This document shows positions 2,825 to 48,735 of a DNA stretch of 64,000 bases, one piece after another. Source of the DNA: Polaromonas sp. (lineage in GTDB: Bacteria > Pseudomonadota > Gammaproteobacteria > Burkholderiales > Burkholderiaceae_C). Under the pieces are notes generated by a model, which saw only the letters and a program-made list of their open reading frames with translations, was not told the origin of the DNA and searched no databases. The DNA lies in the NCBI RefSeq assembly GCF_030680935.1, contig NZ_JAUXUP010000027.1, positions 1 to 64,000 on the forward strand, given 5' to 3'. The first letter of the stretch is position 1, and every line of letters starts with the position of its first letter. The translations under genes were made by a program, and so were the position numbers.

Positions 2825-2891
2825 CGCCGGGCCGGCAAGGGTCTTGCGTTGGGGGCAGAATTCCGGCACCGATGTTGTTGAAACTGCTGAA

Positions 2892-3623: not shown

Positions 3624-3654
3624 ACCACGCTACTGCCGTCAGCCCCCGGGGTTT

Positions 3655-4278: not shown

Positions 4279-4751
4279 AAGTTGTCAATAACCAACGAAA
4301 TTTGCCAAAGCCCGATCAAGTATTGAATTGATAGTAGCTGCTTATTGCAACAGCAATGCCACAGGAGGAAAAAATTTATCTAAAACCGCACGTTCAGCCC
4401 ACGCAAACTGGTGCAGCTACGTTTGCTATCGAGCAGCCCGCTCAAATTTTGGCGCCGCAGTTGTGCCTTTCGAAGGTCGCAATCAGTGCAGACTTTGTAG
4501 CATCCAGCTTGACCGGATTGGTCTTCGCTGAAAGCGCAGCTCGCGCCTTGCCTCCCATGAAGTAAGCGATCCGTTCGCTATTTGCTAGTGAAGGATGGGG
4601 TAGGTCGAATCCGCATCTATCGTGCGGTTCCTTTTTTGTGGTACGGGTCTTACCCATGGTAGCGAGCTTATTTTGCGACTTTCACTTAGCGTCGCCTTAA
4701 ACAGGCTCAAGCGTGAGTATCGTTAGTCGCAGAATCTGGGAGAGCGCAAAG
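4279..4751. other. Island edge without a convincing gene
   Basis: About 470 bp after the comM junction. The most protein-like frame is on the minus strand at 4442-4657 (71 residues, starting MGKTRTTKKEPHDRCGF, basic), but it lacks a good ribosome binding site and I cannot connect it to a family. Plus-strand frames at 4328-4531 and 4356-4565 overlap it and look like shadows. The stretch probably holds the terminal sequences of the mobile element. Confidence 0.3.
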
Positions 4752-14514: not shown

Positions 14515-14530
14515 CCAGAAAAGCCCGGCC

Positions 14531-15085
14531 ATGAATATTTATGTCATCGATCACAGGGGTTTGGCTGCGGCAACGGAGGTAGCGAGCACGTTGCGCGAAT
14601 TGGATCCAGGTTCTACGTTGTTTCCCAATATCAGTTTCGATACGGCTGTCGACAACCAATACGACTTTCCTGCCCTCTTTTTCATTCACGCGGGTCTACT
14701 CGAACGCGCCGAGCTTGAGAATACTTTGACGAATAGCTATGCTGCCGAGAAGTGGGCGCTGGTTCATTTCTATCGCGACGCCTCGTGGCACCAGCCCAAA
14801 CAGGATCCGAGAATCTGCCCAGAAATCTATGATGCCGTTGAGCTGCTACAAGTCGAGCGGCAATGGCTATTGATGCTCCGAAATAGCACGTTGAATGGAG
14901 GGCCCGAATTCAGTGGCGGGCGTGAAAACCTCCCAACAGCCGCCGTCGCCGCCCTGCTAATGCAAAAGGCTGGCCTGGATTTCAGCCTAGTCCCCGGACT
15001 TGATGAAGCCGCGCAGCGGGAATGTCCGGACGGGCAGTACGAGCAAGCGCTCAAGTCTTACTTCGCCCGGGTACGGCCTTCATGA
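14531..15085 (+). CDS. Unknown 184-residue protein, possibly a degenerate receiver
   Basis: Starts MNIYVIDHRGLAAATEVAST, which has the strand-acid-helix opening of a response-regulator receiver. The position expected for the phosphorylated aspartate reads ALFFIHAGLLE, without the acid, and HFYRDAS could be the next strand. The C-terminal 80 residues are helical and unrelated to output domains I know. It lies 16 bp after the 777-residue gene and overlaps the next gene (ATGA). In an operon rich in receiver-like regions a pseudo-receiver is plausible, but the call is weak. Confidence 0.6.
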   Translation: MNIYVIDHRGLAAATEVASTLRELDPGSTLFPNISFDTAVDNQYDFPALFFIHAGLLERAELENTLTNSYAAEKWALVHFYRDASWHQPKQDPRICPEIYDAVELLQVERQWLLMLRNSTLNGGPEFSGGRENLPTAAVAALLMQKAGLDFSLVPGLDEAAQRECPDGQYEQALKSYFARVRPS

Positions 15086-15600
15086 TGTGCATCGACGACG
15101 TGCAGTTCGCCGGCGAGGTCGTCTCGCTGCGCGCCAAAGTGAGCCACAGCTGGCTGGACCACGAAATCTCGATGATCGATACCCCCGTGGCTGTCACCCG
15201 CTGGCGCTCGGGAAACTGGCCGACGATCGCGTGCAAGTGGGAATCCATGCATGACCTGGCGCTGGAGTTTGGTGAGATGCTGCACCGGTTCAGCGCAGCG
15301 GCGCTGGTTGACACGCTGCCTGTCTTCGATGCGATGGAGCTGGCGGCCAAAGGCGAGCTTAGGGCGCGGCTGGACGCATTGCACCAAAATTTCATCGATA
15401 CACCCGCGCTGCGTACGGAGTACCTCGCTCGTCTGCAAACGCTGTGGAGCTGCGCCGTTTCCTTCTTCAGCCTGGCGCAGCAACCGGGCGCTGGCGAAGC
15501 CGAGATCGTTTCGGCTTGGGGCCAGGTGCGCGGCGCCGGCGCGCAAATGAAAGCCTTGTTCACCAGCGGTCTCATCCCCAGCGGGGTGGTCCTGCCATGA
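15082..15600 (+). CDS. Unknown 172-residue helical protein
   Basis: The start is the ATG at 15082, which overlaps the previous stop; a longer frame from 15022 would overlap that gene. The first 60 residues look like a small beta domain (FAGEVVSLRAKVSHSWLDHE), the rest is helical (FGEMLHRFSAAALVDTLPVFDAMELAAKG). No catalytic motif is seen. It overlaps the receiver-AAA+ gene by four bases on its 3' side, so its product is likely made in step with that protein and may bind it. Confidence 0.6.
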   Translation: MMCIDDVQFAGEVVSLRAKVSHSWLDHEISMIDTPVAVTRWRSGNWPTIACKWESMHDLALEFGEMLHRFSAAALVDTLPVFDAMELAAKGELRARLDALHQNFIDTPALRTEYLARLQTLWSCAVSFFSLAQQPGAGEAEIVSAWGQVRGAGAQMKALFTSGLIPSGVVLP

Positions 15601-17252
15601 CGATCCGCATCTTGGTGATCGACGACGAACTGGCGCGACTGGCGTACAAGCGCGAAGAATTTCTCGCGCGCTGGAACCTGTTTCCGGGCCGCGCCTTCGC
15701 GCGCGCGCCGCAGTTCACCTTCATCTCCAGCCAGCATGTTCTGGCCGACCGCATCGACAACGATGCGCAGCTAGCTGTCGAGTTTGTCGCCGAAGACCCC
15801 GAAGCCTGGAGCATGGTGCTGCTGGACATGCAGTTTGACCACGGCGAATTGGTCAACGGCGAGCCACGGCGTGCCGATCCCCGGTTCGGGCTGAAGATCC
15901 AGGCCTTGCTGGAGCGCGAGTTTCCCGAACTCCCCATTTTGCAGTTCACGGCGCAGATGCATGCTGACCTGGCGCACGAAGGCGGGTACTACCTGTCCAA
16001 GATCGATGGAACGACCGAGGATCTGCGCAACCAGCTGATCGAGCGCGGCAGGCTTTCACTGGAAGATCGGCGATTGCTGCTGCGGATTCCTGCCGACACC
16101 ATCATCGCCAGCGATGCCACAGTCAAGGCGTATGCACAGGTACACCGGCTGGCGGCCACCAACGCCGCGCTGCTGATCGTGGGCGAAACGGGGACCGGCA
16201 AGACCCATCTGGCGCGTTACTTCCACGACATGTCGCCCCACGCGTCCGGACCTTGGGTGGTGATGGAGATGACGTCCAAACCAGATAATCTCTTCGAGGC
16301 CCTGCTCTTTGGCCACGAGAAGGGTGCGTTCACCGGGGCCGACAGGTTTTCGCCAGGCCTGTTCAGCGAGGCAGAGGGAGGCACTCTTTTCCTCGACGAA
16401 ATCGGCGCGCTTCCCCCGCAGCTACAGGCCAAGATGCTTCGCGCGGTCGGCGAGCGCCGCTATCGACGGATCGGCGCGGCACAAGATCAGGAACTGCGCT
16501 GCCAGTTGGTGGCGGCGACGCAAGACCCTATCGACGCGGATGCTTCGCGCAAGGATCTTTGGGCGCGCTTTCAGACAGTTTCCATTCCGCCACTGCGCGA
16601 GCGTCCGCAGGAGATCGGAAAGCTCGCGGAACATTTTCTGGCGATCTCCCAAAAAAAGCAGGCCAAAAAGGGCATGAAATTTTCCGCGGTTGCGCTGGCC
16701 ACCCTAGCTGGGCAGCCCTGGCCCGACAACTCTCGCGGGTTGGAGAACATGGTCCAGAACGCGGTCCTGCGCCTTTCCTCCAACAGCGTGGTGCAGCTGA
16801 GGGATCTGGACCTTGTGGCTCCCGCCACGCCGCCAAAGGCTCACGCGCAAGCAACCGCATCACCCTCGCAGGCGCACGAAGCCACAATTTCGCCGTCGAG
16901 CCCGGTGGTGCGTCTGGCAGACCTGCTGGCCTCGATGGACGAGGCAGCCATCCCTGACACGGACGAAGCCCTGCGCGGCTTGCTGTCCAGATTCGATGAC
17001 AAGAGCCGGCGCGTTCGGCAGGAATTGATGCTGGCCGCGATGCATCGATGCCGCCACAAGGTGTCTGGCAAGGTGAACCTGCTGGCCAGCATGCGCTTCC
17101 TGACCAACGATGCAGCTTTGAGTTCGACAGATGCCAAGCGCGATCTCAAGATGGCGTTTGGCTTGACTACAAAAGGCCCGGTCGACCGTGAATGGCTGGA
17201 ACGGCTGCTGCAGGAATGGGTCGCGCGCAAGTACGGCTCGCACGGGCCATGA
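15597..17252 (+). CDS. Receiver plus sigma-54-activator-type AAA+ protein
   Basis: A 551-residue protein. The N-terminal receiver has the acidic pair D9-D10 (ILVIDDELARL), the likely phosphorylation site D77 (MVLLDMQFD) and a conserved lysine in YYLSKIDG. The AAA+ domain follows: Walker A GETGTGKT (196-203), the GAFTGA loop (243-248), Walker B GGTLFLDEIGALP and arginine fingers in RFQTVSIPPLRERPQEI. GAFTGA contacts sigma-54 RNA polymerase in known members. Oddly the C-terminus (LADLLASMDE, then RRVRQELMLAAMHRCRHKV) is not the usual Fis-type helix-turn-helix, so DNA binding is doubtful. It overlaps genes on both sides. Confidence 0.85.
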   Translation: MTIRILVIDDELARLAYKREEFLARWNLFPGRAFARAPQFTFISSQHVLADRIDNDAQLAVEFVAEDPEAWSMVLLDMQFDHGELVNGEPRRADPRFGLKIQALLEREFPELPILQFTAQMHADLAHEGGYYLSKIDGTTEDLRNQLIERGRLSLEDRRLLLRIPADTIIASDATVKAYAQVHRLAATNAALLIVGETGTGKTHLARYFHDMSPHASGPWVVMEMTSKPDNLFEALLFGHEKGAFTGADRFSPGLFSEAEGGTLFLDEIGALPPQLQAKMLRAVGERRYRRIGAAQDQELRCQLVAATQDPIDADASRKDLWARFQTVSIPPLRERPQEIGKLAEHFLAISQKKQAKKGMKFSAVALATLAGQPWPDNSRGLENMVQNAVLRLSSNSVVQLRDLDLVAPATPPKAHAQATASPSQAHEATISPSSPVVRLADLLASMDEAAIPDTDEALRGLLSRFDDKSRRVRQELMLAAMHRCRHKVSGKVNLLASMRFLTNDAALSSTDAKRDLKMAFGLTTKGPVDREWLERLLQEWVARKYGSHGP

Positions 17253-20200
17253 GCCTGATTCGCGATTCGCTCGGTAAGATTGCCGGCCAGGCCGGGCGGC
17301 GCGTGGCCTCGGCGCCGGACGCAGCCCACCGGATCTGGGTACTCGATTACGAGCCCAACTTTTCGGCACTCTGGGATTTTGATGGCGCGGCCTGGTCCGC
17401 CGAGCTCGATCTTGTCGTGCTCGTCGAGGGCGGAGATCTTCGCGGCATCGGCGAGGTGGAATACACCCGGCATCTAGGCGCGCATGACTGGGCGCTGATG
17501 TGCTGCAGCTCGCGGACCCTCGATGGGAAGGCGCGCCCCGAAATCCTGATCGTCGATGCGCGTAACTACGCATCCGGCAGGGTGGACTACGGCAGCGAGC
17601 TGGTCGATCTCCTGCGGCGTCGGCGCGGCGTGCCGCTACCCATCCACAATTTCAGCCCGTATGCGCCCGGACAGCTGGACGATCTGGTGGATCGCGTGAA
17701 AGATATTTCAGGGCCGCAACGCAGCGCGGGCGACATCTCGAGGGCGCAGGCAACGCTAGTCCACCAGCTCTGGGTGCGCCAGCTCAGCGACTCGGACGAC
17801 CGCAACGAGCACCACTTCTTGAACAACGCCCTGGCTCCGCTTGCCATCGCTGCGCAAAGCGCGCGAGGCTCCAGGGCATTCGAAGAGGTTGCAAAATGCC
17901 AAGAGCGCTCGAGGATCGCACGCCACACCCTCATGGAAGTGCTGCGCCGCGTTGCCGGCGCGCCGGAGGGGGCGGCGGATGCAAGTATGCAGCAAGTTCC
18001 GGAACTGCGAGATGCCGGGTTCATCCTGGTCGATGACCAGGCCGACTTCGGCTGGTCGGCGCTGCTGGGTGCGGGTCTGGCGCAAGCCGGTGTCCAGAAG
18101 CCTTTGCGTTGCTTCACCAACGTAGATGCCGTCTTGACCAGGCTCGAAGAGCTCGCGCGCGAGGCAGTTATGGACCCTTACCGTTCGCTGCGGTTACGCC
18201 TGTCGCTCGATGGCCAGGAAAGCGAGGCGCTGTTTCTGGACATCCGGCTGTTCGGCAGCGAAACGCCCGAGTCAACCCGACGGGAAGCCGCATTCTTCAG
18301 GGCGCTGCTGGGGACTGACAGCGTACCGGGGCTGATCGAGCGGTTATATGCCCAAGGAAGCGATGACGAGGCGCGTCAAGGCCTTGCCATTGGGCAGGAT
18401 GAAGTCGCTGATCTGCGTACTTGGCTCGCTCCCGTCGAGGCGGGGCAGGCGGCAGACTGGCGCGCTGCACCTCAGTATCTGCAAGCCATCACGCTGCTGG
18501 CCCGTCTGCTGGCATGCATGGACTGTAGCTATCCGGTCATCTTGTTTTCGTCCAGCGGTCAGCGCAGGCTGGCACAACTGTGCGCGCCTTACCCCTCTAT
18601 CTATCTCGATTTCCCCAAGCCGCGGTTCGGTGCCTACGCCTCAAGCGAGATCGGGGCTGAATTTCGGCAGCACCAGGCCAAGACTCTCGCGTTCGTCAGA
18701 AAGCGGCTGGCCGCTCGCGGCGCCGCGCAGGCGATGCTCTCGCGCAGCAATGCGGCGGGTCCCAAGCGGGACGGCGTGGTCAAGGCTCAGAGCTACGTCG
18801 AAATCTTCACTGATGAGTCGGGGCGAGACGATAGTCACCATTTCGTTGTCACCGCGCTAGCTGTGATTTACCGCCGTGCCCGCAGTTCCGTGGAAGCCGC
18901 CGAGTTGGAACCAGCGCTTCATAAGCGCACCGTCCGGATCCGCGATCCCAAGAATCCTCTTGCCCGCATCAACGTGCCTTTCAGGTGGCGCAAGGGTAGT
19001 GTGTATGCGGAGAACCAGCCAATGCCCAAGAGGATGGAGAACGAACAAGACGGCGAACAATGGAAAGTCTTCCGGGACAACACCCCGGCGTTGCTCAATA
19101 GCGCCGCGGGTTGGAATGAGGTTGAGCGCATCGTGGCCGTCAGCATGTATTCGCGAATGGAAGACAACGCTCGGGAGGGTCCCGACGCGCTGAAAGATTT
19201 TTCTCTTGATGCATTGAATTTCAAGCATTTGCTCAATTGCCTGGAAGTGCTGACGGTCGAGCTGCTGGGCGAAGGACTGCACAACCCGGACTATCCATTG
19301 TCTGTTTTTTTGGCTAATCGGCTGCGATTTGTTTCGAACGCTGCAGACACGACCGGGTTTGCGGAGAAATCGAAAGCCGATCAACTGGGCAAGACATTCA
19401 CGTCGAGGTTTGGCATCGATACGGAGCCTTTCATAAACAGCAAAACAGGCAAGCACGGAGTTGCTTACCATTCGATAGGACCGGCAACGCCAGCGCGCCT
19501 TTGGACCGAACTGGCCAATCGAAACCCGGCGATCAGAAAGCTGCAGCCCCAAATTTGCAGGGGTGAGGGCATGAATTCAGAGGATGGCGCGCTGCGCACG
19601 CTGCACAACCTAGCCGACTCCCTGGCATCCACTATCCATTCCTCGACGTTTGTGCCGCTGCCCGGTGAGGACCCGAGCGAACAACTTCGATGGTTTGCCG
19701 AGTGCCAGGACAATGCCGCCATTTCGCTGACCAACACCCATGCCGGCCGGGCCACCGACCTAGCCATGGACAGCTGCCGTTATCACAACCTGGGTGACTT
19801 GGGCGGCTGTGTACTGCTGGGGGCGCTGGCCGCGTGCGCTGAAACCAAAGAGGACCGCGCGCACCCGATATCCTCGGTGTTGCCCCGGCTGCTGTGCAAA
19901 GGCGCCGATGCCATGCGCAAGCTGAATGCAGCGCAATACGAAGTGTTTGTCGACGATTTCAACCGTTTGGGAACGCGCGACAGTTCGCTGGCAAGACGCT
20001 CGGCCATCCTGGTGGCAGGCGCGCCTGAGGCGCTGCCGGAGGTAGCACCTGTGGCGGCTCCGGAGGCGACCCCTGAAGCCACAACACCCAACCTCGAAAC
20101 GCTAGAAGAACCCGGGGGCACCTTCAGCGCGTGCGTGATGAGCGCACTGGTGAAAAAGAAACCGACTTGCGTCGAGCTGCTGATAAACGGCAAGCACTAC

Positions 20201-20326
20201 ATCGCGGATGTGGGCAGCCAGGATTTGGCAGACACGATGCGCAGCGAGCAAGCTCGTATCCGTGTGGAAACCACACGCGAAATCGCGGGTCCGTCGGTCT
20301 ACAGGGCCATTTGGATCAAGGTCTGA
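17249..20326 (+). CDS. 1025-residue protein with two receiver-like regions and a DUF3800-like domain
   Basis: The start at 17249 overlaps the previous stop. Region 1 (about residues 28-150) resembles a receiver with EILIVDARNY, aspartate 103. A helical segment with EHHFLNNALAPL (H188, H189) recalls the histidine box of some sensor kinases. Region 2 (about 255-490) opens GFILVDDQADFG, has LFLDIRLFG with aspartate 331, and ends YLDFPKPRFG with the usual lysine. From residue 518 SYVEIFTDESGRDDSHHFVV opens a DUF3800-like domain, a fold seen in uncharacterised, probably nuclease-related proteins. The last 120 residues hold a proline/alanine/glutamate linker and a small beta domain. It is the last gene of the operon. 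The domain order is unusual and I know of no characterised equivalent. Confidence 0.75.
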   Translation: MSLIRDSLGKIAGQAGRRVASAPDAAHRIWVLDYEPNFSALWDFDGAAWSAELDLVVLVEGGDLRGIGEVEYTRHLGAHDWALMCCSSRTLDGKARPEILIVDARNYASGRVDYGSELVDLLRRRRGVPLPIHNFSPYAPGQLDDLVDRVKDISGPQRSAGDISRAQATLVHQLWVRQLSDSDDRNEHHFLNNALAPLAIAAQSARGSRAFEEVAKCQERSRIARHTLMEVLRRVAGAPEGAADASMQQVPELRDAGFILVDDQADFGWSALLGAGLAQAGVQKPLRCFTNVDAVLTRLEELAREAVMDPYRSLRLRLSLDGQESEALFLDIRLFGSETPESTRREAAFFRALLGTDSVPGLIERLYAQGSDDEARQGLAIGQDEVADLRTWLAPVEAGQAADWRAAPQYLQAITLLARLLACMDCSYPVILFSSSGQRRLAQLCAPYPSIYLDFPKPRFGAYASSEIGAEFRQHQAKTLAFVRKRLAARGAAQAMLSRSNAAGPKRDGVVKAQSYVEIFTDESGRDDSHHFVVTALAVIYRRARSSVEAAELEPALHKRTVRIRDPKNPLARINVPFRWRKGSVYAENQPMPKRMENEQDGEQWKVFRDNTPALLNSAAGWNEVERIVAVSMYSRMEDNAREGPDALKDFSLDALNFKHLLNCLEVLTVELLGEGLHNPDYPLSVFLANRLRFVSNAADTTGFAEKSKADQLGKTFTSRFGIDTEPFINSKTGKHGVAYHSIGPATPARLWTELANRNPAIRKLQPQICRGEGMNSEDGALRTLHNLADSLASTIHSSTFVPLPGEDPSEQLRWFAECQDNAAISLTNTHAGRATDLAMDSCRYHNLGDLGGCVLLGALAACAETKEDRAHPISSVLPRLLCKGADAMRKLNAAQYEVFVDDFNRLGTRDSSLARRSAILVAGAPEALPEVAPVAAPEATPEATTPNLETLEEPGGTFSACVMSALVKKKPTCVELLINGKHYIADVGSQDLADTMRSEQARIRVETTREIAGPSVYRAIWIKV

Positions 20327-20676
20327 TTCCGCGCCCAACCCCTGCCGTCTTCACCTTTATCGGTAGCACTTCTGCTACCAAAGCGTGCTGCAACGCATGT
20401 AAACACCTGTGGTTCCTCCTGTTTCCGCCCCCGCGCGCTGGCCTTAATATTGCTCTTTCCTTAACGAGCCGGACGAACAGCAAGCTTCCTTCCGGTTCAG
20501 TGTCCTTCTGAAATTCTGCTGACAACACAGCGCACGCCATTCGGCTGCGCTTCCTGACGAAACCCAAGCCGGGCGCGGTCACCACCGCGGGACGGCACCC
20601 TCCCCCGGGGCGCAGCTGCGCCTGCGGGCAGATGACGGGAATCGTCCGGCAGAAACCAACTTTCAGGAGACACACA
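20327..20676. other. Gap between two operons, with one perfect hairpin
   Basis: 350 bp without a gene. A perfect 7-bp stem with a 4-base loop lies at 20362-20379 (GGTAGCA-CTTC-TGCTACC), 36 bp after the end of the ten-gene operon. It has no T-tract, so it may be a weak terminator or RNA-processing site. The promoter of the next operon must lie in the right half, but I cannot point to a clear -35/-10 pair. Confidence 0.4.
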
Positions 20677-21066
20677 ATGGCCAAGACCGCTTCCGAACGC
20701 CGACTCGCCAAGCGCAGCAGCGCTTTGGCCCAGCTGGCCGACAGCAATCCAGAGCACCTCAAGCGTGTGTTGGAAACCTTGCTGCGCGGCTGGGTCAACG
20801 AGGCGCGCTACCGGGCCAGCGCCTTCCGGCATGAGACCGGCAACGACGCGCCCTTGAAGGCCTTTGCCGTGATCGAGCACGCCCAGCGCGCGCTGCTCGC
20901 GCTCGGACCGCAGGCTGTGAGCCTCGGCCAAGGCATGTTGGCGACCCTGCGGCACGAATGCGCCAAAGCGGTCGCCGAAGCCGGCGGCCGCCACCTGTAC
21001 TTGTCTGCCGTCGATTGCACGACCAAGTTACGCATGTGCAATGTGCGCGACCGCCGGCGTGATTGA
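20677..21066 (+). CDS. Unknown 129-residue helical protein, first gene of the ubiquitin-like operon
   Basis: Starts at the ATG at 20677 with AGGAGA eight bases before it; an upstream start at 20632 is less likely. The sequence is helical and basic (MAKTASERRLAKRSSALAQL). A central part reads HLKRVLETLLRGWVNEARYR, and the end contains VDCTTKLRMCNVRDRRRD with two cysteines. No family is recognised. It stands 33 bp before a small membrane-protein gene and in the same direction as the whole conjugation operon, so it is probably a component or regulator. Confidence 0.65.
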   Translation: MAKTASERRLAKRSSALAQLADSNPEHLKRVLETLLRGWVNEARYRASAFRHETGNDAPLKAFAVIEHAQRALLALGPQAVSLGQGMLATLRHECAKAVAEAGGRHLYLSAVDCTTKLRMCNVRDRRRD

Positions 21067-21099
21067 GACCGCTGGTTTTTAAAGAAAGGACTTCGCACT

Positions 21100-21492
21100 A
21101 TGACTGAAAATATCGTCGCGCTCGGATGCGTGCTCTTTCTGCTGGGGGTGGTGCTGATGTTCACCGGCAGAGTTGGCATCGGCGTCAAGCTGACCGTCAC
21201 CGGTGTGCTGCTGATCGCAAAGACCTTCGCGATCCTGGGCGCGATGGAGTGGCTGCGCCAACACCCCTCGGGCTCAGTAGATACCTGGTGGTGGGTGCTA
21301 GCCATCGCAGCAGCTGCGGTGGTGGGGCTGCTGATGGGCGTGCTCCTGGTAGTGCGGGTAATTTTTCGCGGCATACGCCGCACGCTGGCGCCGCCAGAGG
21401 CCCGGGCCGCGCTGGGCGGAGCGGTGATCGGCCACCTGATTGCCAATGCGCTGGCCTCTCGCAACGCCCGTGACAACAGGAGAATCCGTTGA
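21100..21492 (+). CDS. Small membrane protein, three predicted transmembrane helices
   Basis: 130 residues, start at 21100 after AAAGAAAGGA. Hydrophobic segments are at about residues 5-23 (VALGCVLFLLGVVLMF), 27-47 and 63-87 (WWWVLAIAAAAVVGLL). The C-terminal 40 residues are charged, with RRTLAPPEARAALG, and probably face the cytoplasm. It overlaps the next gene by four bases. With the DUF4407 protein it ties the conjugation operon to the membrane. Confidence 0.75.
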   Translation: MTENIVALGCVLFLLGVVLMFTGRVGIGVKLTVTGVLLIAKTFAILGAMEWLRQHPSGSVDTWWWVLAIAAAAVVGLLMGVLLVVRVIFRGIRRTLAPPEARAALGGAVIGHLIANALASRNARDNRRIR

Positions 21493-22361
21493 ACGCGCCA
21501 GGCTACGCCGCCGATTTTGCGCAGTTCTTGCGCGCCGGGCGCATCGATCTGCCCGAGCCCGAACTGCAGATCGCGCTCGATGGCGGCGCCAGCGCGGCAC
21601 CCACCGCCCTGGTGAGCGGCACGGTACACGCGTCGCAGGCGCAGGTTCGCCAGCTGTTCTGGCGTATGCGCGGCGATGACGCCTGGTCGCCCGCCGCGCT
21701 GCAGGGTGGGCGGTTCGCGATTGCCGGCTGCGGCCGCGCCGGTACGATGGAGCTGCGCTCGCTGGGCGCCGCCGACGGCGACGGCGCGCAGGTCATCGCC
21801 TGGGCTTTCCTCGAACTCGCTTGGCCAGCTGCCCAAGTCGATGTCGCCAGCGCGCCGGCCCAGGTGCTGCGCCACTCGCCGTGGTCTGCACAGGTGAGCG
21901 CGCTGTGGATCGAAGAGCTGACGGTGACGCAAGCCGACGGTTCCCTCACCCGGCACGCCGCCGCGCCAGGTGAGCAAGCCATGTTCGAAGTAGCGGGTGG
22001 CACCGGTGTCATCGGCCACCACGTCGTGGAGCTGGCCTGGCGAGCTCTGGATGGCAACCAGGGCGCCATGACGCTGGAATACGAGGTGGGGGCACGGCCA
22101 ATGCGCCTGGAGATGCGTGCGTCGCGCACGGGTGGTTTGTATTACCGCGCCGAAAACGCCGAGGCACTTGAGCTGTTGTTGCACGGCGCGGCCGCGGCGC
22201 AGCCGCTGCCCTCGGAGGGCGTGATCGAGAACAGCTTGCTCGCGCCCTTGTGCGGCGTACTGCGCTACCGCGATGAAGCCGGCCAATGGCGGGCCGAGCC
22301 CGTCCGACTGGATCACTCGCCGCGCGGTTGGCCGCAGGCGCGCGGCTTTGCACCCTACTGA
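21489..22361 (+). CDS. Unknown 290-residue protein in the ubiquitin-like operon
   Basis: The start is a TTG at 21489 that overlaps the previous stop (TTGA). The protein appears to be made mostly of beta strands (ALVSGTVHASQAQVRQLFW, QVIAWAFLELAWPAAQ, GALTLEY-like repeats) and has no signal peptide or obvious catalytic residues. It has no cysteine-rich or nucleotide-binding motif. I cannot name a family. Its position between two membrane-protein genes suggests a peripheral subunit or a substrate of the conjugation enzymes. Confidence 0.65.
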   Translation: MNAPGYAADFAQFLRAGRIDLPEPELQIALDGGASAAPTALVSGTVHASQAQVRQLFWRMRGDDAWSPAALQGGRFAIAGCGRAGTMELRSLGAADGDGAQVIAWAFLELAWPAAQVDVASAPAQVLRHSPWSAQVSALWIEELTVTQADGSLTRHAAAPGEQAMFEVAGGTGVIGHHVVELAWRALDGNQGAMTLEYEVGARPMRLEMRASRTGGLYYRAENAEALELLLHGAAAAQPLPSEGVIENSLLAPLCGVLRYRDEAGQWRAEPVRLDHSPRGWPQARGFAPY

Positions 22362-22402
22362 AACGACGTACTTCTCATCCACCCTACATCAGGAGACATA
22401 CC

Positions 22403-23695
22403 ATGAACGCAGACCACAACGCATTGGCGCAGATCACGCAAACCGGCCGCAACGCCGTCGCCGCCGTCCGCGCGGCGCTCTTGTGGTTCGTGGGCGTGCC
22501 TGCCGATGCCATCCTGGCGCACCGTATGGACGTGCAGATGCGCTACACCGGCGCGGGTCTGCTGGTGTGCATCTGGTATGTGTTCATGCTCGTCACCTGG
22601 GTCAAAACCGGGCTGTATTTCTTCGGCACCGCGGGAGGCGCGGCCTTCGCGCTCATCCCGACGATGATGCTCGCGGTTGACCGCATGATTGTCTCGCAGC
22701 CGCGCAACCCGCGAGGCGCGCTCGCCAGCTATGCTATCGATGGGCTGCTGCCCAATCGCTGGGAGTTTGCGCTGCGCTCTCTGGCCGCGCTGTCCTTCAG
22801 CGTCGTGACCACCGCGGTGTTCCTCATCAACCACTCCGGCGCGGAAATCCACGCCCGGCAGCAGCGCGACCAGCAGGCGTCCAACGCGCCGCTGCGCGCG
22901 GAAATCGCCGCCCGCATCGACTCGCAGATCGGCGAGCGCACGCGCAGCGTTACCAAGCGGTCTGCCGAACTGGAGGCGCAAGCGGTCATCCTGCGCGAGG
23001 ACTACGCCGCCAGCCGCAAGCTCGCCGAAGTGGCAGAAGAGCGTATGCACGGCGCACAGTTCAACGTGGCGGCCGAGCTGGGAGGCATCGCGGGCCGCGC
23101 CAGCGGGCCGGGCGTGCGCCACGACGCCTACCAGATGATCGCGCGCCAGAGCCAGGACGCCGGGGTCAACGCCCGCGCACGCGAGACGCGCAGCCGAGAA
23201 GCGCTGGCCAAGGTGCAGGCCGAGCTGCAGCAGCTCAACGCCGACCGCGAGCGCATCGCCGCCGACCGCGCGGGCGCAATGGGCAACATCGAAGCTGACA
23301 TGCAGGAGGATGCGCGCTACGTGAAGCGCAAGCGCGGCCTGTTCGCCGAAGCCAGCACCCTGATCAAGCTGTACGGCGACAGCGACGTTGGGCCGGGCCT
23401 GGTGCTGGTCACCTTTATCGCGGCGGTGTTTCTTTTCGTTCTGGAGATGTCGCCGCTGCTCGGACTGGCGTTCCTGTCGACGACACCCTTCGACGTGGAG
23501 CGCATTGCGCAGGACCGCAGCGCTGCCGCAGGCATCCTGGCCCACCACGAGATGGAACTGGTACAGGCCGCCGCACGGCGCTCGGTGCGGGTGCGACCCG
23601 CGACCGCCGCAGAATCGGGCGGCGCGCCAGCGGCGCAAGCGGACCCGGAGCATGCCCCAGGGACACCGGCAGCGCGTGAGAAAGGTGAGGCATGA
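22403..23695 (+). CDS. DUF4407-like membrane protein
   Basis: 430 residues, start at 22403 after AGGAG (22391-22395). Transmembrane segments flank a long coiled coil: about residues 50-90 (AGLLVCIWYVFMLVTWVKTG and the next hydrophobic run), 128-145, then a helical region from about 150 to 310 rich in charged heptads (QLNADRERIAADRAG), and a last segment near 335-360 (LVLVTFIAAVFLFVLEMSPL). This is the layout of DUF4407 proteins, whose function is unknown. The C-terminal tail is proline/alanine-rich. It overlaps the E2-like gene by four bases, so the membrane protein and the conjugating enzyme are translated together. Confidence 0.75.
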   Translation: MNADHNALAQITQTGRNAVAAVRAALLWFVGVPADAILAHRMDVQMRYTGAGLLVCIWYVFMLVTWVKTGLYFFGTAGGAAFALIPTMMLAVDRMIVSQPRNPRGALASYAIDGLLPNRWEFALRSLAALSFSVVTTAVFLINHSGAEIHARQQRDQQASNAPLRAEIAARIDSQIGERTRSVTKRSAELEAQAVILREDYAASRKLAEVAEERMHGAQFNVAAELGGIAGRASGPGVRHDAYQMIARQSQDAGVNARARETRSREALAKVQAELQQLNADRERIAADRAGAMGNIEADMQEDARYVKRKRGLFAEASTLIKLYGDSDVGPGLVLVTFIAAVFLFVLEMSPLLGLAFLSTTPFDVERIAQDRSAAAGILAHHEMELVQAAARRSVRVRPATAAESGGAPAAQADPEHAPGTPAAREKGEA

Positions 23696-24129
23696 AAGCG
23701 CGCGCCGAGCTGCTCGAGTGGGAGCTCAACAACCTGGAGCAATGGCTGGGCAGGTTCCAGTGCGCGGTGCGCCCGCGCGTGGCGATCACGCCGTCGGGCG
23801 AAACCATGATTCTGCGCGACTTTCCGCTGCCCGACAGCTACGCGCCGGACCGCATCGACATCGCGTTGATAGTCACCGCCTTTCCGGCCGACCCACCCAA
23901 GGGTCTGTACATCCTGCGCCGGCCTGACAACAGCCGTGTCGTGGCTAGCCTGCAGGCGCGGTTCAACGTGTTTCGCGAAAAGGGGTTTCACGGCGCGCCG
24001 TCCGTAACCGGCTTCGAGTGGCTGTGCATCGGCTATCTCGACGGCTGGCTTTACGACGCGGCCCAGCCTAACAAGGGCGACAACATCCAGAAGATGTTGA
24101 GTGAGTTTTGGCGTTTATCAGGAGTATAG
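23692..24129 (+). CDS. E2-like (UBC-fold) conjugating protein
   Basis: 145 residues, with ATG overlapping the stop of the DUF4407 gene. The order of elements fits a bacterial E2/UBC fold: a helix (AELLEWELNNLEQWLGRF), a beta sheet (ALIVTAFPADPPKGLYIL, where FPADPP corresponds to the YPxxPP turn of E2 proteins) and the candidate catalytic cysteine C112 in GFEWLCIGYLDGW, followed by NKGDNIQKMLSEFW, the helix that usually carries D-N-L. In E2 enzymes the cysteine carries the modifier as a thioester. The JAB-E1 gene follows three bases later. The call depends on motif and neighbours. Confidence 0.72.
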   Translation: MKARAELLEWELNNLEQWLGRFQCAVRPRVAITPSGETMILRDFPLPDSYAPDRIDIALIVTAFPADPPKGLYILRRPDNSRVVASLQARFNVFREKGFHGAPSVTGFEWLCIGYLDGWLYDAAQPNKGDNIQKMLSEFWRLSGV

Positions 24130-24131
24130 AT

Positions 24132-25652
24132 ATGCAAATCGATCGACACAGTTTCGGCGGCCGGCTGCGCATCAGCGATGCGGTCGCGGCCAAGCTCGAG
24201 GCCCACCACCTGGCGCCGGGCAAGGACGTCGAGTCCCTCTCCTACGCGCTCGGGCACGCGTACCGCGGCGCCGACGGGCAACTCACCATCGTTGTGGCCG
24301 AGCCCGGCGACGTGCTGCTGTTCGCACCCGACTGTTTCATCAGCTCCGGTTATGGCCACGTCACTCTGGACCGGCAGATCAAGGCGAAGGTATTCCACCG
24401 CGCGGTCGAGGGCGGGTTCACGGCGGTGGTCGATATCCACGACCACCACTTTTCCCACTCTGCGCGCTTCTCCTCAACGGACACCCGCGACGACCGGGTC
24501 AACGCGCGCTACCTCAAGCACACTGTGCAGGCCTTCATGCCGCCTGGCCGTGAGTTGTTCGCCGCAGCGATCGTCATCTCCCGAGGCGATTGGGCCGCGC
24601 GCTTCGTCGACGACCAAGCGCCCGGCGGCCCAGCCTTCAGCGCCTTGCGGATCGACCGGATCGGCGCACGCGCGCAGTGCATGAGCGACATCGGCACGCC
24701 GGTCATCGAGGAGCGCTTCGCACGCAACGAAGGCTTGGTCAGCGCCCGTGAGCAAAACCTTATTGGGCGCTCTCACGCGGTTGTGGTTGGCGCAGGTGGC
24801 ACCGGATCGATCGCGCTCGAGAGTCTGCTGCGACTGGGCTTTGGAAAAGTGTCAGTGATCGATGCCGACCGGGTTGAAGCCAGCAATCTCAACCGCCTGC
24901 AGGGCGCCGGTCCCGCGGACATAGGCCGGCTGAAGATTGACGTGCTGGCGGACCACGCGCGGCGCATTGCGCCAGCAACGCGCTTTGAGGGCGTGGCGGC
25001 AAAGTGCTTCGACGAGGCGGCGCGTCCGTTGCTCGAAAGCGCAGATCTCATCCTGGGCTGCGTGGACAACCCCGAAACCCGCTGGTGGCTCAACCAGCTG
25101 GCCGTGCAGTACATGATTCCCTGGTTCGACTGCGGCGTGCTGTTGCACACGCAACCGGCGGTCCACCATGAAGTGCGCACCAGCATGGTGTTACCCACGG
25201 TCACCGCCTGCGGCCATTGCGCGCCGGTCGAGTTCTGCCCGCGCAAGCTGCCGACGCAGTTCATGGACCTAGAGTCCTTGCGCCAACAGCGCGCCGCCGG
25301 CTATCTGGCGCAGGAGCCACAAAAGGCGACGCCATCGGCCTATCTCGTCAACCAGCAAGCTGTCAGCTGGATGCTGCGTGAAGTCATGAACTGGTACTGC
25401 GGCTGGGCGCCAGCGGCGGCGTCTGTCTTCTGGCGCAGCGACAGCACGCAAATCCAGCGCCTGGACGCTACGTTGGCCGATCTTTGGCCCGACCCGGGTT
25501 GCCCCGTCTGTGGGACGCAGGCCGGCCTGTGCCGCGAAGGCCGTTTGCCGGCCACTGGCTCGCATCTGGTTCTTGCCGCCGCTGCGAACGCATTGTTGTC
25601 CGAAGCGATGAACGAAGTTGTCCCTGTCCCTTGTCTCTCCAAATCCCACTGA
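24132..25652 (+). CDS. Fused JAB-type metalloprotease and E1 (ThiF-like) activating enzyme
   Basis: 506 residues; AGGAG lies just before the ATG at 24132. Residues about 1-180 form a JAB/JAMM domain with DIHDHH (H103, H105), S114 and D117, the zinc-binding HxH-Sx2D set; these enzymes trim ubiquitin-like proteins after Gly-Gly or remove them from targets. Residues about 195-480 form an E1/ThiF domain: VVGAGGTGSIALE (G220-S226), VIDADRVEASNLNR (D244, N252, R255) and CVDNPETR (D312). Two cysteine pairs, CGHC (360-363) and CPVC near residue 455, probably bind structural zinc. Activation would adenylate the modifier with ATP. Its substrate is most likely the 91-residue protein encoded next. Confidence 0.88.
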   Translation: MQIDRHSFGGRLRISDAVAAKLEAHHLAPGKDVESLSYALGHAYRGADGQLTIVVAEPGDVLLFAPDCFISSGYGHVTLDRQIKAKVFHRAVEGGFTAVVDIHDHHFSHSARFSSTDTRDDRVNARYLKHTVQAFMPPGRELFAAAIVISRGDWAARFVDDQAPGGPAFSALRIDRIGARAQCMSDIGTPVIEERFARNEGLVSAREQNLIGRSHAVVVGAGGTGSIALESLLRLGFGKVSVIDADRVEASNLNRLQGAGPADIGRLKIDVLADHARRIAPATRFEGVAAKCFDEAARPLLESADLILGCVDNPETRWWLNQLAVQYMIPWFDCGVLLHTQPAVHHEVRTSMVLPTVTACGHCAPVEFCPRKLPTQFMDLESLRQQRAAGYLAQEPQKATPSAYLVNQQAVSWMLREVMNWYCGWAPAAASVFWRSDSTQIQRLDATLADLWPDPGCPVCGTQAGLCREGRLPATGSHLVLAAAANALLSEAMNEVVPVPCLSKSH

Positions 25653-25664
25653 AAGGAAATCTCC

Positions 25665-25940
25665 ATGGCCAAGTTCAATCCTCAACGCCTGAAGCCCATC
25701 ATCGTCGACGGTGAAACCGTGTTCGCGCCCGAAAACGCGACGATTGGCGACGTCGTCCCCGGCGACGTCAACGCCGTGACCGTTTTCGACGAGGCCGGCA
25801 AAGGCCAGTTGCTGCCTCGCAGCGCGTTCCGACGACCCTTGCCCGAAGGCTTTGATACCCACCTGACGCACGTGGCAAAGGGCGGGCCGCCACGCAAGCG
25901 GAGAGCAGCCAGCGCGAAAGGAGCCGGCGCGCATGGTTGA
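25665..25940 (+). CDS. Candidate ubiquitin-like modifier with a tail after Gly-Gly
   Basis: 91 residues, start at 25665 with AAAGGA upstream. Residues 10-72 look like a short beta-grasp domain (PIIVDGETVFAPENATIGDV, FDEAGKGQLLPRSAF), and the domain ends in a Gly-Gly at 73-74. A basic tail PPRKRRAASAKGAGAHG follows, so a protease would have to cut after Gly74 before activation; the JAB domain encoded immediately upstream could do this. The beta-grasp reading is by eye, and a multiubiquitin- or PRTRC-C-like relation is possible. It is the last member of the conjugation operon that I can support with confidence. Confidence 0.65.
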   Translation: MAKFNPQRLKPIIVDGETVFAPENATIGDVVPGDVNAVTVFDEAGKGQLLPRSAFRRPLPEGFDTHLTHVAKGGPPRKRRAASAKGAGAHG

Positions 25941-25982
25941 TGCCATCGCCGCGCTTTTGATTTCTAGGTCCTGGAGGAAGTC

Positions 25983-26198
25983 ATGAACTTGGTTTGCGGC
26001 TGGTACGAACCCGCAGCCTCGCTTTACAGGCACAGCTGTGAAGAAAAGGCGCAGAAGATTGATTCCTCGATCACTAACCTGGAGAGCAATCCGGATTGTT
26101 CCGTCTGTGCAACCCTGCTCGCTAAATGTAACGACGAAACGCTTGCCCAACATGCCAAATTTGTGGATCTTGCAGCCGCAGGAGCAGTATTCAACTGA
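25983..26198 (+). CDS. Small cysteine-containing hypothetical protein
   Basis: 71 residues, MNLVCGWYEPAASLYRH at the start, with GGAGG five bases before the ATG. It has four cysteines besides C5, in HSCEEK, NPDCSVC and LAKCND, which could bind a metal. It starts 42 bp after the modifier gene in the same direction and could be a late member of that operon. No family is recognised. Confidence 0.55.
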   Translation: MNLVCGWYEPAASLYRHSCEEKAQKIDSSITNLESNPDCSVCATLLAKCNDETLAQHAKFVDLAAAGAVFN

Positions 26199-26268: not shown

Positions 26269-26700
26269 ATGCGCTTTGGAAGCAACGTTTCTTCGGCCGG
26301 TCCAGGAGGGGCTGACGCTACCCAAGCCTTGCGCCTCGTCAAATGTCCCCTGTGGCTCCGATCCATCGCGCGCCGATCCCGTTGCAACGCTTCGGGCCTG
26401 CTAGACAAATTGAGTGCGAGCTGGACAGCTGCTTCTCTCGCTAGATCGACTTCCCCGAAAACCATGCTGATGCCAAACCCCACCGCCCTGCTCCGTCTGG
26501 GTGAGCGCGCTCGCCAACACTTGGAGCGCGCGTTTGCTCACTGGAGCGCTCGCTCACTGCTGGGCTTTGATATTGGCCGCGCGTGGACGTTCGGCCCTAG
26601 GCCTAGTAGTCCGTTCCGGACTGCACTCGGCTACGGCCGCTCGTTTGGCGGGCTGAGCCGGGGTTCGCGGGCGCAAGCGCATTCTAGGAGCCCGGCATGA
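26269..26700 (+). CDS. Hypothetical basic protein upstream of the ATPase gene
   Basis: 143 residues from the ATG at 26269, with AAAGGAG about 12 bases upstream. It is serine-, arginine- and leucine-rich, has no hydrophobic segment and no recognisable motif. The main support is that its stop codon overlaps the ATG of the large ATPase gene at 26697, the coupling style used throughout this island. Low-complexity composition leaves some doubt that it is translated. Confidence 0.45.
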   Translation: MRFGSNVSSAGPGGADATQALRLVKCPLWLRSIARRSRCNASGLLDKLSASWTAASLARSTSPKTMLMPNPTALLRLGERARQHLERAFAHWSARSLLGFDIGRAWTFGPRPSSPFRTALGYGRSFGGLSRGSRAQAHSRSPA

Positions 26701-29700
26701 TGCCAGACGTGACAATGCAGGACTTCACAGGCGTCGTTGTACCCGAGCCATCGCCGGTCGATGTGCCGGCTAGCTTCGCAGATTCGGGAGATCGACGAGT
26801 CGCCAAGAGCCGCGGAAATGATGGGCGCATTGAATCCCATATGGACTCTCCCGCGCTGGAAATCGCTCCACTTGCATCCCGGATCAGCCCGGTTTTTCAG
26901 CTCGCCAGCGTAAGTCACGGCGACGCGCTTCGGCTTTCCTTTTTGCAGCAGGAATCCGCGCTTGCTGATGGGCGTCTGAAGTCCAACATCGATGCAGCCT
27001 TCTCCTTGCTTGTCGCGCGACTCAGTGAGGGCGAGTCCCTGATCGCCACCCACTCGTTTTATCCGGAAGGCAGCGGCTGCATGGGCGTTTCGTCCCGCTT
27101 TCATATCGAGCGAGAGGGTGACTCGAGGCCGACGGGTGCCCCACCGGACAAAGCGCCTTCGCTGTTGGCCGACGTCATTACCGACTGGCGAGGCGTGTTT
27201 CGCACTGGACTTGCGCTATTGAGTGAAGAGTATTCGTTTCGGCAATTGGAATCCCTAGACCTGATACCGCAAGCAAACCGGGTTTTTCTGCAGTTCGATT
27301 CATGCAGCGTGACGGATCAATCGAGCATGGGGTTCACCGCTGCCGCGGACCCACCCGTCCAGGTTTCGTTGGCGCTCTGGGCTGCGGTCAGTGGGTCGTC
27401 GCTTTGGCCCGGCACGCTGGAGCGCACCTTCAAGGCCGCCCGGGCTCAGGAAGCGGCGGTCGCTGTCGGGGTCAGGATTTCACGCTTTGCCCTGATCGGT
27501 CAGCAGCGTTCCGCCTTGGAAAAGCTTGATGTGAGCTCGGATTTTCAAGGTCGTATCCACGGCGCTGTCTTGTCTAAGGTGAAGCAAACGTTTGTTGACC
27601 ACGTCGGTGAGTTTTTACGGGTTGAACCCTTCATCGAAGTCACCCTGGATCCGATGCTATCGGGCGCCATTGCGCCCTGGTCTTCCAGGCGTGTGTCGGC
27701 GCTGGTTGACGTCTTTGCCAAGGAGGTCCTGCCACTGCACACGGGCGGTCGCCTTGTGTCCGGCGTTGAGCGGCCCAGATTTTTGCCTTGTACGAATGCC
27801 TCCGTTGGCTTGGACCTGACGACGGCGATGCCGTTCAGCGGGTCGCTGCCGCCGTTGCTTGCCAACCCGGAAGCGTTGCGGGATCTCGATTTTCCTCGCC
27901 ACCATCTGAACAGTGCACTGCGGCTCCCCCAAGACGGCTTGCTGTTGGGAGCCGCGCAAGTTGGGGGCTTTGAGCATGAAGTGCGCCTGCGTCAAGCTGA
28001 TCGCTCGCGCCACGTCTACATGGTAGGCGGCACGGGCGTTGGCAAGACCAAAGCCATTTTCCACATGATCAGGCAGGATATGGATCAGGGCGGAGGACTG
28101 GCTCTAGGCGACCCAGCGGGAGATCTCTTTGAAGAAGTTTTGGAGCACGTGCCAGACCATCGCCTGAAGGACGTGGTCGTCATCGACCCCAGCGATGCCA
28201 GCATGGCCGTCGGACTCAATCCCTTGGACCTTGGCGACAACCCCTCGCCACTGGCGGTCAACCACCTTACTGGGGACCTGCTCGACATATTCGATCACCT
28301 GTACGACATGAAAACTGCAGGAGGACCGGGTTTCGAACAGTTCTTCAGATACACCATGCTTTTGGCTGCCACTGCGCCCTACGAAAGCCCATCCCGTCAA
28401 GACGGATGCCCCAGCTTCTTCACGGTCTTGGCGTTGCTGCGCGACAAGGATTGGCGCGACTGGGTTCTGAGCAAGGCGAGGATGTCGTTCCTCGGAGAAC
28501 ACATGGCCAACGAAGTCGTGGAGTTCTTTAAGGCCGCAGAAGCAACCAGCGGCGAGACGTCTTTTCGGAACTGGGTGCCCTACATCTCCAACAAACTGAC
28601 TCGATTCACCGACAACCCGCTGCTGCGACCGCTCCTGTGCAGCAGACGCCGGACAATAGATTTTCGAAAGATCATGGACGAACAGAAGATCTTGCTGGTC
28701 AACTTGAGCAAGGGCGCCATCGGGGCTCTCGACGCAAAAATGATCGGCATGCTCATTACCAAGGGACTCTTTGGGGCTGCCATGAGCCGATTCGATCTGC
28801 CCAGAGCGCGAAGGGTGCCATTTACGTACTACTGCGATGAATTTCAAGACTACTTAAGCCCTGATATTGGCGCCGTTCTGGACCAGGGCCGGAAGTGGGG
28901 GCTGCAGATGGTGTTGGGGCATCAATCGATAGGGCAACTTCGCACTGGAACCTCACGCGCTACGCTGGACGCGGTCCTCGGCAACGTTCCGACTCGTTTG
29001 ATCTTTCGAACAGGTATAGAAGACGCTGCACTGCTGGAGCAGGCTCTGCAACCTCAGATTAACCGTTTAACCCTATCGCAACTTGCTGACCGCCAAGTTG
29101 CCGCACGTCTGCTGATTGACAACAAGGTGTCGATGCCATTCATTTTCACCACGCAAACGGTGCTTGAAGATCGGTCTCAGGCGGAGCGGGCCCAATCAGC
29201 GGCATCGGCGCGAAAATTCTCCCGTGAAATGTACGGCATTGCAGCCAGGGATTCCATGCTGGCAGGCGCGGCGCCACCGCCAGCTCTGTTGCCTGCGCAG
29301 CTAGTGGACGGGGTTGCTGTAAGCGCAACGACAGTGAATGAAATCAAGCCACTGCAGAGTTTGATGAAAGGGTTCGTCAAGCTGCGCGGAACCCTGACTC
29401 GTGATGAGAGCAGCAAACTCGCTGAGGCCGACAGGGTCGCCCTTGTCACGTGGCTGCATACGGCGCAGCACTCCACATCGTCGTCGCCAGTAAAACCAAT
29501 GGCCAGCCGGCTCTACCGAACCAGCAACCGATCGCTGGTGTTCGTCACCTCGGTGGATGGCAACGGGGCTGCCAAAGCTGTCGTACTTGAAGGTGGACAT
29601 CGGGACGCAGCACTGCTGGGTGAAAGACCGGGTTCATTCTTTGACCTGAAGCCGACTGGTGAATACTGCAGCAAACAGTCATCAAGTCGCCTGCTGGGGA

Positions 29701-30164
29701 TGTCGCTCCAAAAGGAAATACAGGTTCGGGAAGTCAGCGAACTCTGTAGCGCACCACAGCGTGAATGCTCATTCAATTGGTTGCTTGAACAAGAATTGGC
29801 CAACACTCATACCCTTAAGACGGTTGGAGGTAGCTTCTATCAAACACTGGACGGCAGTGTTGTGTACGTGACCTGTAAGCAGGACGCGGACGGCGAATAC
29901 AAGGCCGTTGTTCTATCTGGTGGGCACGGCATTGACCAATTGAGGGGAACTACAGCAACCGACTTCTTCTTTGTGGATTCCTCCGGAACGTACTGCCTTG
30001 CCAGCGAACTCGCCAAAAAGGCAACGCCGACCAAAATCGCCGCCGCAAGTGGAATGTCGCTCGTTCGCCGTCTGGAAGCACCTGCCCTTGATTCACAGCA
30101 AGCTGAGTCCAGCACCGACCTGGCGGCTACGTCGGTGAACGGTGTAGCGAACTCTTCAGACTAG
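26697..30164 (+). CDS. Large HerA/FtsK/VirD4-like ATPase
   Basis: 1155 residues. The first 430 residues are an uncharacterised N-terminal region. The motor domain has Walker A GGTGVGKT (444-451) and Walker B FTYYCDEFQDYL (D714, E715). LGHQSIGQLRTG follows, in the place of the T4SS coupling-protein motif Q-x-x-x-Q-L. DPAGDLFEEVLEH is the DPHGDL-like motif of TraD/VirD4-type proteins. The C-terminal 250 residues carry two related segments (RLYRTSNRSLVFVTSVDG and FYQTLDGSVVYVTCKQDA), a duplicated small domain. Relatives pump DNA or act in defence complexes. No transmembrane helices are visible, unlike classical coupling proteins, so it is likely cytoplasmic. Confidence 0.8.
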   Translation: MMPDVTMQDFTGVVVPEPSPVDVPASFADSGDRRVAKSRGNDGRIESHMDSPALEIAPLASRISPVFQLASVSHGDALRLSFLQQESALADGRLKSNIDAAFSLLVARLSEGESLIATHSFYPEGSGCMGVSSRFHIEREGDSRPTGAPPDKAPSLLADVITDWRGVFRTGLALLSEEYSFRQLESLDLIPQANRVFLQFDSCSVTDQSSMGFTAAADPPVQVSLALWAAVSGSSLWPGTLERTFKAARAQEAAVAVGVRISRFALIGQQRSALEKLDVSSDFQGRIHGAVLSKVKQTFVDHVGEFLRVEPFIEVTLDPMLSGAIAPWSSRRVSALVDVFAKEVLPLHTGGRLVSGVERPRFLPCTNASVGLDLTTAMPFSGSLPPLLANPEALRDLDFPRHHLNSALRLPQDGLLLGAAQVGGFEHEVRLRQADRSRHVYMVGGTGVGKTKAIFHMIRQDMDQGGGLALGDPAGDLFEEVLEHVPDHRLKDVVVIDPSDASMAVGLNPLDLGDNPSPLAVNHLTGDLLDIFDHLYDMKTAGGPGFEQFFRYTMLLAATAPYESPSRQDGCPSFFTVLALLRDKDWRDWVLSKARMSFLGEHMANEVVEFFKAAEATSGETSFRNWVPYISNKLTRFTDNPLLRPLLCSRRRTIDFRKIMDEQKILLVNLSKGAIGALDAKMIGMLITKGLFGAAMSRFDLPRARRVPFTYYCDEFQDYLSPDIGAVLDQGRKWGLQMVLGHQSIGQLRTGTSRATLDAVLGNVPTRLIFRTGIEDAALLEQALQPQINRLTLSQLADRQVAARLLIDNKVSMPFIFTTQTVLEDRSQAERAQSAASARKFSREMYGIAARDSMLAGAAPPPALLPAQLVDGVAVSATTVNEIKPLQSLMKGFVKLRGTLTRDESSKLAEADRVALVTWLHTAQHSTSSSPVKPMASRLYRTSNRSLVFVTSVDGNGAAKAVVLEGGHRDAALLGERPGSFFDLKPTGEYCSKQSSSRLLGMSLQKEIQVREVSELCSAPQRECSFNWLLEQELANTHTLKTVGGSFYQTLDGSVVYVTCKQDADGEYKAVVLSGGHGIDQLRGTTATDFFFVDSSGTYCLASELAKKATPTKIAAASGMSLVRRLEAPALDSQQAESSTDLAATSVNGVANSSD

Positions 30165-48389: not shown

Positions 48390-48410
48390 ATGGTGGCTCC
48401 AAAAACAACT

Positions 48411-48451
48411 CAGCCCCTGCAAGAACCGGCATTGCCGGTCACCAGGGGCTG
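48411..48451 (-). promoter_or_regulatory. Structured RNA leader hairpin upstream of metK
   Basis: In the leader the outer arms CAGCCCCTG (48411-48419) and CAGGGGCTG (48443-48451) are perfect complements, and inside them ACCGGC (48425-48430) and GCCGGT (48434-48439) form a second stem with a 3-base loop. On the transcript a run of five U follows near the ribosome binding site. It could be an attenuator or a metabolite-sensing element. It does not match any AdoMet riboswitch class that I can recall. Confidence 0.5.
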
Positions 48452-48518
48452 TTTCTGGGCCGACGGTTTAGCTGCATTTATTACTCGCCCGCAAGTAGTC
48501 CTAAATCGGCGAAGCTTT

Positions 48519-48577: not shown

Positions 48578-48735
48578 ACTCCCTCGCACGACCCACTGAG
48601 TCGACAAACTACCAGTGGACTAGCCACTTCTCAGGCATGACTTCCCTCAGTCAGACGCGCCCAGCTTTCCAGGCCGCTCCTGCGTGAAATGCAAGTCGCT
48701 GGAATGCATGCACCAGACAAGCACGTGTGAAGTTG

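Follow-up and report, generated by a model that had tools for sequence, protein, structure and literature searches.

A putative ubiquitin-like conjugation cassette related to Bub/type 6e operons, with a membrane-protein neighbour, in Polaromonas sp.

We analysed a 64,000-nucleotide stretch of DNA from Polaromonas sp. (contig NZ_JAUXUP010000027.1, positions 1 to 64,000 of the forward strand; hereafter the window), in which seven plus-strand genes at 20677-25940 form a single operon-like block. This block probably encodes a full set of parts for reversible ubiquitin-like conjugation, in a clade akin to the Bub/type 6e systems and working by the steps proposed below; the observed part of this explanation consists of sequence conservation, a confident structural model of the E2-like protein and gene linkage. 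The operon is real and conserved, and it seems to be distantly related to the Bub operons. A purine-rich site lies upstream of every start in genes 1 to 7, GC at codon position 3 ranges from 0.74 to 0.84 across the seven genes, as in coding sequence, and the genes are tightly packed, with 4-nt overlaps between genes 2/3 and genes 4/5 and a 2-nt spacing between genes 5 and 6. A preliminary description made from the letters alone had seen here a co-directed seven-gene operon with ubiquitin-like conjugation parts, namely an E2-like protein with C112, a fused JAB-E1 enzyme with full JAMM and E1 motifs, a candidate modifier and a DUF4407 membrane protein, and all of these observations were borne out by the results that follow.

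Gene 6 (24132..25652, plus strand) encodes a 506-residue protein in which a JAB (JAMM) peptidase is fused to an E1-like adenylating domain with two CxxC pairs; its ThiF domain was matched in Pfam at E 1.9e-38 and Prok-JAB at a sub-threshold E of 0.018. From 7,999 scored candidates we obtained 36 JAB-E1 homologues, of which P0001-P0028 were aligned. E34, H103, H105, S114 and D117, together with the residues of the nucleotide site, are invariant in all 28 aligned members, JAB and E1 residues lie within a single chain in every one of them, and the JAMM and adenylation residues are also present in at least five of six Bub/6e E1s. The best match to the gene 6 profile among solved structures (PDB) was Citrobacter BubCD (E 1.4e-38), and both domains are covered, since the match spans profile positions 7-425 of 498. 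The JAMM stretch FSDTDD of BubCD aligned to F113-S114-x-x-D117 of gene 6, and the BubCD structure listing includes a D104A variant from about this stretch. Homology between the gene 6 E1 and the Bub/6e E1s runs from end to end (hhalign E 4.5e-51); in a joint alignment, Y391 is shared by the clade (28/28) and the Bub/6e E1s (6/6), while Y404 (28/28) is confined to the clade. Conservation of cysteine within the clade is confined to the two CxxC pairs (28/28), C310 (27/28) and C68 (27/28), none of which is presumably positioned like the catalytic cysteine of known E1 enzymes.

In an E1 tree of 42 rows, 30 clade rows fall on one side of a branch with 100/100 support, and seven Bub/6e rows likewise stand apart from the clade rows; five ungrouped rows were left uncounted, and one Bub row (L048) was drawn with two ungrouped rows and not with the other six. 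Long branches (Vibrio albus, Ketobacter, L047, P0031 and P0034) leave the finer placement unsure. Judged from sequence, the gene 6 E1 belongs to a clade separate from the Bub/6e E1s.

The predicted structure of gene 5 (23692..24129, plus strand), a 145-residue E2-like protein, is a UBC fold in a confident model, and C112 is kept in 14 of 15 sequences. BubB was the top match of gene 5 both in PDB, by profile (sub-threshold, E 0.18), and in Foldseek, by model (E 0.023). The protein has no Pfam match, Prok-E2_E included, and in profile comparison it is not significantly related to the E2s of five 6e-type loci. Gene 7 (25665..25940, plus strand) encodes a 91-residue candidate modifier, with a conserved body to K72-G73 followed by an 18-residue tail. 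K72-G73 is present in 15/15 sequences, seven of which stop at G73 and eight of which carry tails beginning with Gly (5/8) or Ala (3/8), a pattern of conservation that fits the C-terminal Gly of ubiquitin-like modifiers, either exposed or followed by a tail that may be removable. With no Pfam match, and no significant profile relation to the ubiquitin-like proteins (Ubls) of four 6e-type loci, gene 7 is a candidate Ubl lacking detectable sequence relation to those of type 6e.

When 84,980 species, one genome apiece, were scanned by pattern, at least four clade loci emerged, in Azoarcus sp. (L031), Betaproteobacteria MS502-56 (L032), Vibrio albus (L033) and Ketobacter sp. (L034). With single window proteins as queries, homologues of the E2 (E 1e-38 to 7e-11) and the Ubl (E 2e-9 to 6e-3) were found beside the E1 in 4/4 of these loci; a protein called Z is common to the first three and has a weak counterpart in Ketobacter (E 0.0015, profile from the other three). 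Gene 4 (22403..23695, plus strand), a 430-residue DUF4407 membrane protein (PF14362, E 3.5e-14; 53.2 bits, curated cut-off 31.3) with hydropathy segments at 19-37, 49-67, 74-92, 124-142 and 329-347, has homologues in Azoarcus, MS502-56 and Vibrio albus. The neighbourhood search for DUF4407 beside JAB-E1 fusions, suggested in the preliminary description, upheld this association: the family is above the Pfam cut-off in three of five clade loci (the window, MS502-56 and Vibrio albus), and the Azoarcus copy, truncated by the contig end, makes a fourth, being matched by phmmer (E 1e-15) and by a profile from which it had been left out (E 2e-34), as compared with 4/299 phylum genomes above the cut-off, own included. 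The fetched flanks around seven Bub/6e loci contained no DUF4407 match.

Two betaproteobacterial relatives, Azoarcus and MS502-56, have Cas1/Cas2 genes beside the cassette, and in both DUF4407 adjoins the Cas1 gene. In MS502-56 a single strand carries, in order, E2, E1, Ubl, a small protein, Cas_NE0113, Z, DUF4407, RT-Cas1, Cas2 and Cas2; the reverse transcriptase (RT)-Cas1 fusion and the two Cas2 genes occupy 16239-18996 behind DUF4407, and counting from an internal ATG would put the RT-Cas1 start about 4 nt after it. In Azoarcus, 13081-15993 holds an array of four clustered regularly interspaced short palindromic repeats (CRISPR), which together with Cas1-Cas2 adjoins Z; on the other strand it has Cas2 and a disrupted Cas1 region that includes a further Cas2 domain, next to DUF4407 on that strand.

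Among known systems the operon comes closest to Bub/type 6e; it departs from this group in its E2, modifier, gene order, absence of DUF6527 and membrane neighbour. In the accessible sections of Iyer 2006 (PMC1779556), type 6e is described as having a Ubl that consists of between one and three domains, an E2/RWD-like protein without Cys, a metal-binding protein and a JAB-E1 fusion, with JAB at the N terminus of the E1, beside the Ubl and E2-like genes; according to the accessible part of PMC13373217, 544 Bub operons have been identified, and protection against phage has not been demonstrated for them. Bub and type 6e would be the same group, because BubCD and BubB match 6e-type proteins. The earlier claim that known sets are arranged differently, with protease and E1 in one chain only here, was overturned: type 6e has the fusion, annotated plasmid operons are alike, and BubCD is the closest structure. 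The window operon shares with Bub/type 6e the N-terminal JAB on the E1, separate E2-like and Ubl genes, and the JAMM, adenylation, CxxC and Y391 residues, and in carrying JAB N-terminally on an E1 of Bub type it agrees with that group. It differs in that (i) its E2 has a conserved Cys, while the 6e E2s are described without one in the same part of PMC1779556, and (ii) its Ubl is unrelated by detectable sequence, clade Ubls being often tailed. It differs further in that (iii) its order is E2-E1-Ubl, as against Ubl-E2-E1-DUF6527 in five plasmid operons (one of them, L047, without an annotated separate E2 gene); (iv) DUF6527, annotated in 5/5 of these operons, is absent from the window and has no match in the whole own genome, a control search having matched in 1/14 genomes; (v) it contains DUF4407; and (vi) it lies downstream of a sigma-54 activator, in contrast to the ImmA/IrrE-type regulators near L046, L049 and L050.

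Bub reportedly works by oxyesters, and the block could be an ordinary diverged Bub/type 6e operon with this same chemistry, its Cys incidental and its membrane genes passengers. The end-to-end homology of the E1, the BubCD and BubB matches and the shared Y391 all speak for this, as does the fact that single-domain Ubls are also known in type 6e, according to the available sections of PMC1779556. We nevertheless consider it unlikely, given the fully supported separate E1 clade, an E2 and a Ubl without Pfam matches or significant profile relation to 6e-type loci, the lack of DUF6527 in the genome, the different gene order, and the absence of DUF4407 from the fetched flanks of the seven Bub/6e loci.

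Other known systems are less alike. Bil (BilABCD) also has a Ubl, an E1, a Cys E2 and a JAB in one operon; as described in the accessible text of PMC11354881, it differs in that JAB is encoded by a gene of its own, BilA carries two Ubls and the E1 has both inactive and active adenylation domains, and in our clade JAB and E1 share one chain in 28/28. Type II cyclic oligonucleotide-based antiphage signalling systems (CBASS), with Cap2/Cap3, resemble the operon in their E1, E2 and JAB functions, and PADLOC E1-E2 models match the gene 6 E1 domain; the E2 and E1 of the window are separate genes, as opposed to the E2-E1 fusion Cap2, and no nucleotide cyclase was matched among the window proteins scanned. 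PRTRC likewise has ThiF-type and JAB-type proteins, but the window scored 42.3 bits for PRTRC_ThiF (cut-off 144.75) and 17.1 bits for PRTRC_A (cut-off 101.8). Near the Ketobacter cassette, about 4.6 kb from the E2 and on the opposite strand (2206-4475, minus), there is an AAA_5 ATPase, MoxR-type by our reading, with a sub-threshold vWA-type protein; this recalls the MoxR-vWA FtsH ternary systems with Ubl conjugation (Kaur 2020), in which, by contrast, JAB and E1 are encoded separately and there is a Ubl-E2 fusion with EAD1, as given in the accessible part of PMC7159879.

For the proposed conjugation cassette we infer chemistry, target, regulation and purpose as follows: (i) the JAB domain would cut the 18-residue tail after G73 and later take the modifier off its targets; (ii) the E1 domain would adenylate G73; (iii) the modifier would pass to C112 of the E2 as a thioester, straight from the adenylate or via an oxygen nucleophile such as the invariant Y391, transfer without an E1 cysteine being suggested by the placement of the conserved E1 cysteines; (iv) the E2 would hand the modifier to a target, for which the membrane is the likeliest site and DUF4407 itself, as target or anchor, a plausible candidate; and (v) expression would probably depend on sigma-54, in a stress or defence response. 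By analogy with its relatives, the cassette most likely serves in defence or in responding to stress, because their neighbours are of defence type (the CRISPR array and Cas1/Cas2 pieces in Azoarcus; Cas_NE0113, RT-Cas1 and two Cas2 in MS502-56).

As regards regulation, an exact sigma-54 promoter-like core, TGGC-N7-TTGC (TGGCCTTAATATTGC), lies at 20439-20453 on the plus strand, 224 bp upstream of gene 1 and within the 350-bp gap before it, where about 0.014 such cores are expected on that strand. Across both strands of the window, nine exact cores were found against 5.26 expected, a number reached by 13 of 100 shuffles and so no clear excess. A possible regulator, a sigma-54 activator (15444..17252, plus strand; Sigma54_activat E 1.9e-46), has an N terminus that is receiver-like by eye, with no receiver match in the Pfam scan. 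It is followed at 17192-20326 on the plus strand by a 1044-residue protein of no known family, with receiver-like stretches by eye and a sub-threshold DUF3800 match (E 0.11).

Several observations weigh against the cassette as proposed. In Vibrio albus, whose E2 gene (9416-9949, minus strand of L033) is divergent from the E1, His replaces C112. Structure prediction, named earlier as a check on both proteins, gave the UBC fold for the 145-residue gene 5 and a low-confidence model for the 91-residue gene 7, so that the beta-grasp fold was assessed on that weak model. The Azoarcus DUF4407 is below the Pfam cut-off (E 0.0067), none was found in the fetched part of the Ketobacter locus, a looser threshold (E <= 0.001) finds the family in 22/299 phylum genomes, and in Azoarcus and MS502-56 it may be part of the Cas1 module. 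The sigma-54 site, suggestive as a sequence, is a core match alone, and does not appear among matches to the fuller consensus with at most two mismatches. Downstream of the operon, the C-terminal piece of a second JAB-E1 (25968..26198, plus strand; tblastn) shows decay of such loci; at 47% identity to P0009 and 37% to gene 6, it is a relic of a different member and not a duplicate of gene 6. Finally, no Cas1 was matched in the window's own genome, nor in those of Vibrio albus and Ketobacter.

This last result bears on whether the cassette is a CRISPR-associated module, acting by modification or regulation on an RT-Cas1/Cas2 adaptation complex or on a branch of CARF signalling, with the window copy having no CRISPR genes. 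The single-strand arrangement in MS502-56, from the cassette through Cas_NE0113, Z and DUF4407 to RT-Cas1 and two Cas2, and the array with Cas1-Cas2 beside Z in Azoarcus favour such a module, but the three genomes without Cas1 oppose it, and both supporting loci are betaproteobacterial and perhaps reflect one event; we hold it to be unlikely, and slightly less so than not differing from Bub/type 6e beyond simple divergence would be likely. A sulfur-carrier (ThiS/MoaD-like) system, forming a thiocarboxylate on a small protein without protein conjugation, is very improbable given the E2-like homologue beside the E1 in 4/4 related loci and the Pfam scans of window proteins, which matched no rhodanese and no family of sulfur metabolism.

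To our knowledge, the types of ubiquitin-like conjugation understood in bacteria are few. The conjugation cassette may shed light on how thioester and oxyester chemistries turned into one another, since in its clade a Bub-type JAB-E1 occurs together with an E2 that has the Cys and with a modifier not recognisably akin to known ones; the Vibrio albus His-for-C112 E2 offers a natural test of the need for Cys, and the three small genes 5, 6 and 7 are enough for a first in vitro test. The recurrent DUF4407 neighbour gives an uncharacterised membrane family a functional context and makes a membrane target directly testable, and, with Cas1/Cas2 genes next to the cassette in two relatives, one may ask whether ubiquitin-like tagging in bacteria reaches into CRISPR adaptation. 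A bolder and doubtful extension would be a membrane system in which a Cys-E2, charged by an E1 without catalytic cysteine, puts a tail-trimmed modifier on DUF4407, as a signalling layer wired in some betaproteobacteria into RT-Cas1/Cas2 adaptation and a CARF module.

The remaining genes of the operon are less readily assigned. Gene 1 (20677..21066, plus strand; 129 residues, with a ribosome-binding site and GC3 of 0.82) has no Pfam family above cut-off and no significant match in the four related loci, and gene 2 (21100..21492, plus strand), a 130-residue small membrane protein with hydropathy segments at 5-23, 25-43 and 67-85, likewise has no Pfam family above cut-off. Gene 3 (21489..22361, plus strand; 290 residues, TTG start) had no match among 148 related genomes; it is possibly equivalent to Z, the Azoarcus Z being matched by phmmer at E 1e-3 within a set of five and not significantly by hhalign. 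The block has a GC content of 66.3% (window, 58.6%), and it was probably acquired, because among 199 related genomes, own included, the closest E1 match outside its own genome is 33% over residues 213-468.

Elsewhere in the window, a TrwB/TraD-like coupling ATPase (26697-30164, plus strand), about 750 bp downstream of the operon, may belong to a mobile element. At 39098-44991 on the minus strand, a UvrD helicase with a PD-(D/E)XK nuclease adjoins another large protein that weakly matches a nuclease, possibly an AddAB-like pair, and at 47244-49605, also on the minus strand, there are genes that we take, by motif alone, to be S-adenosylmethionine synthetase-like and sirtuin-like.

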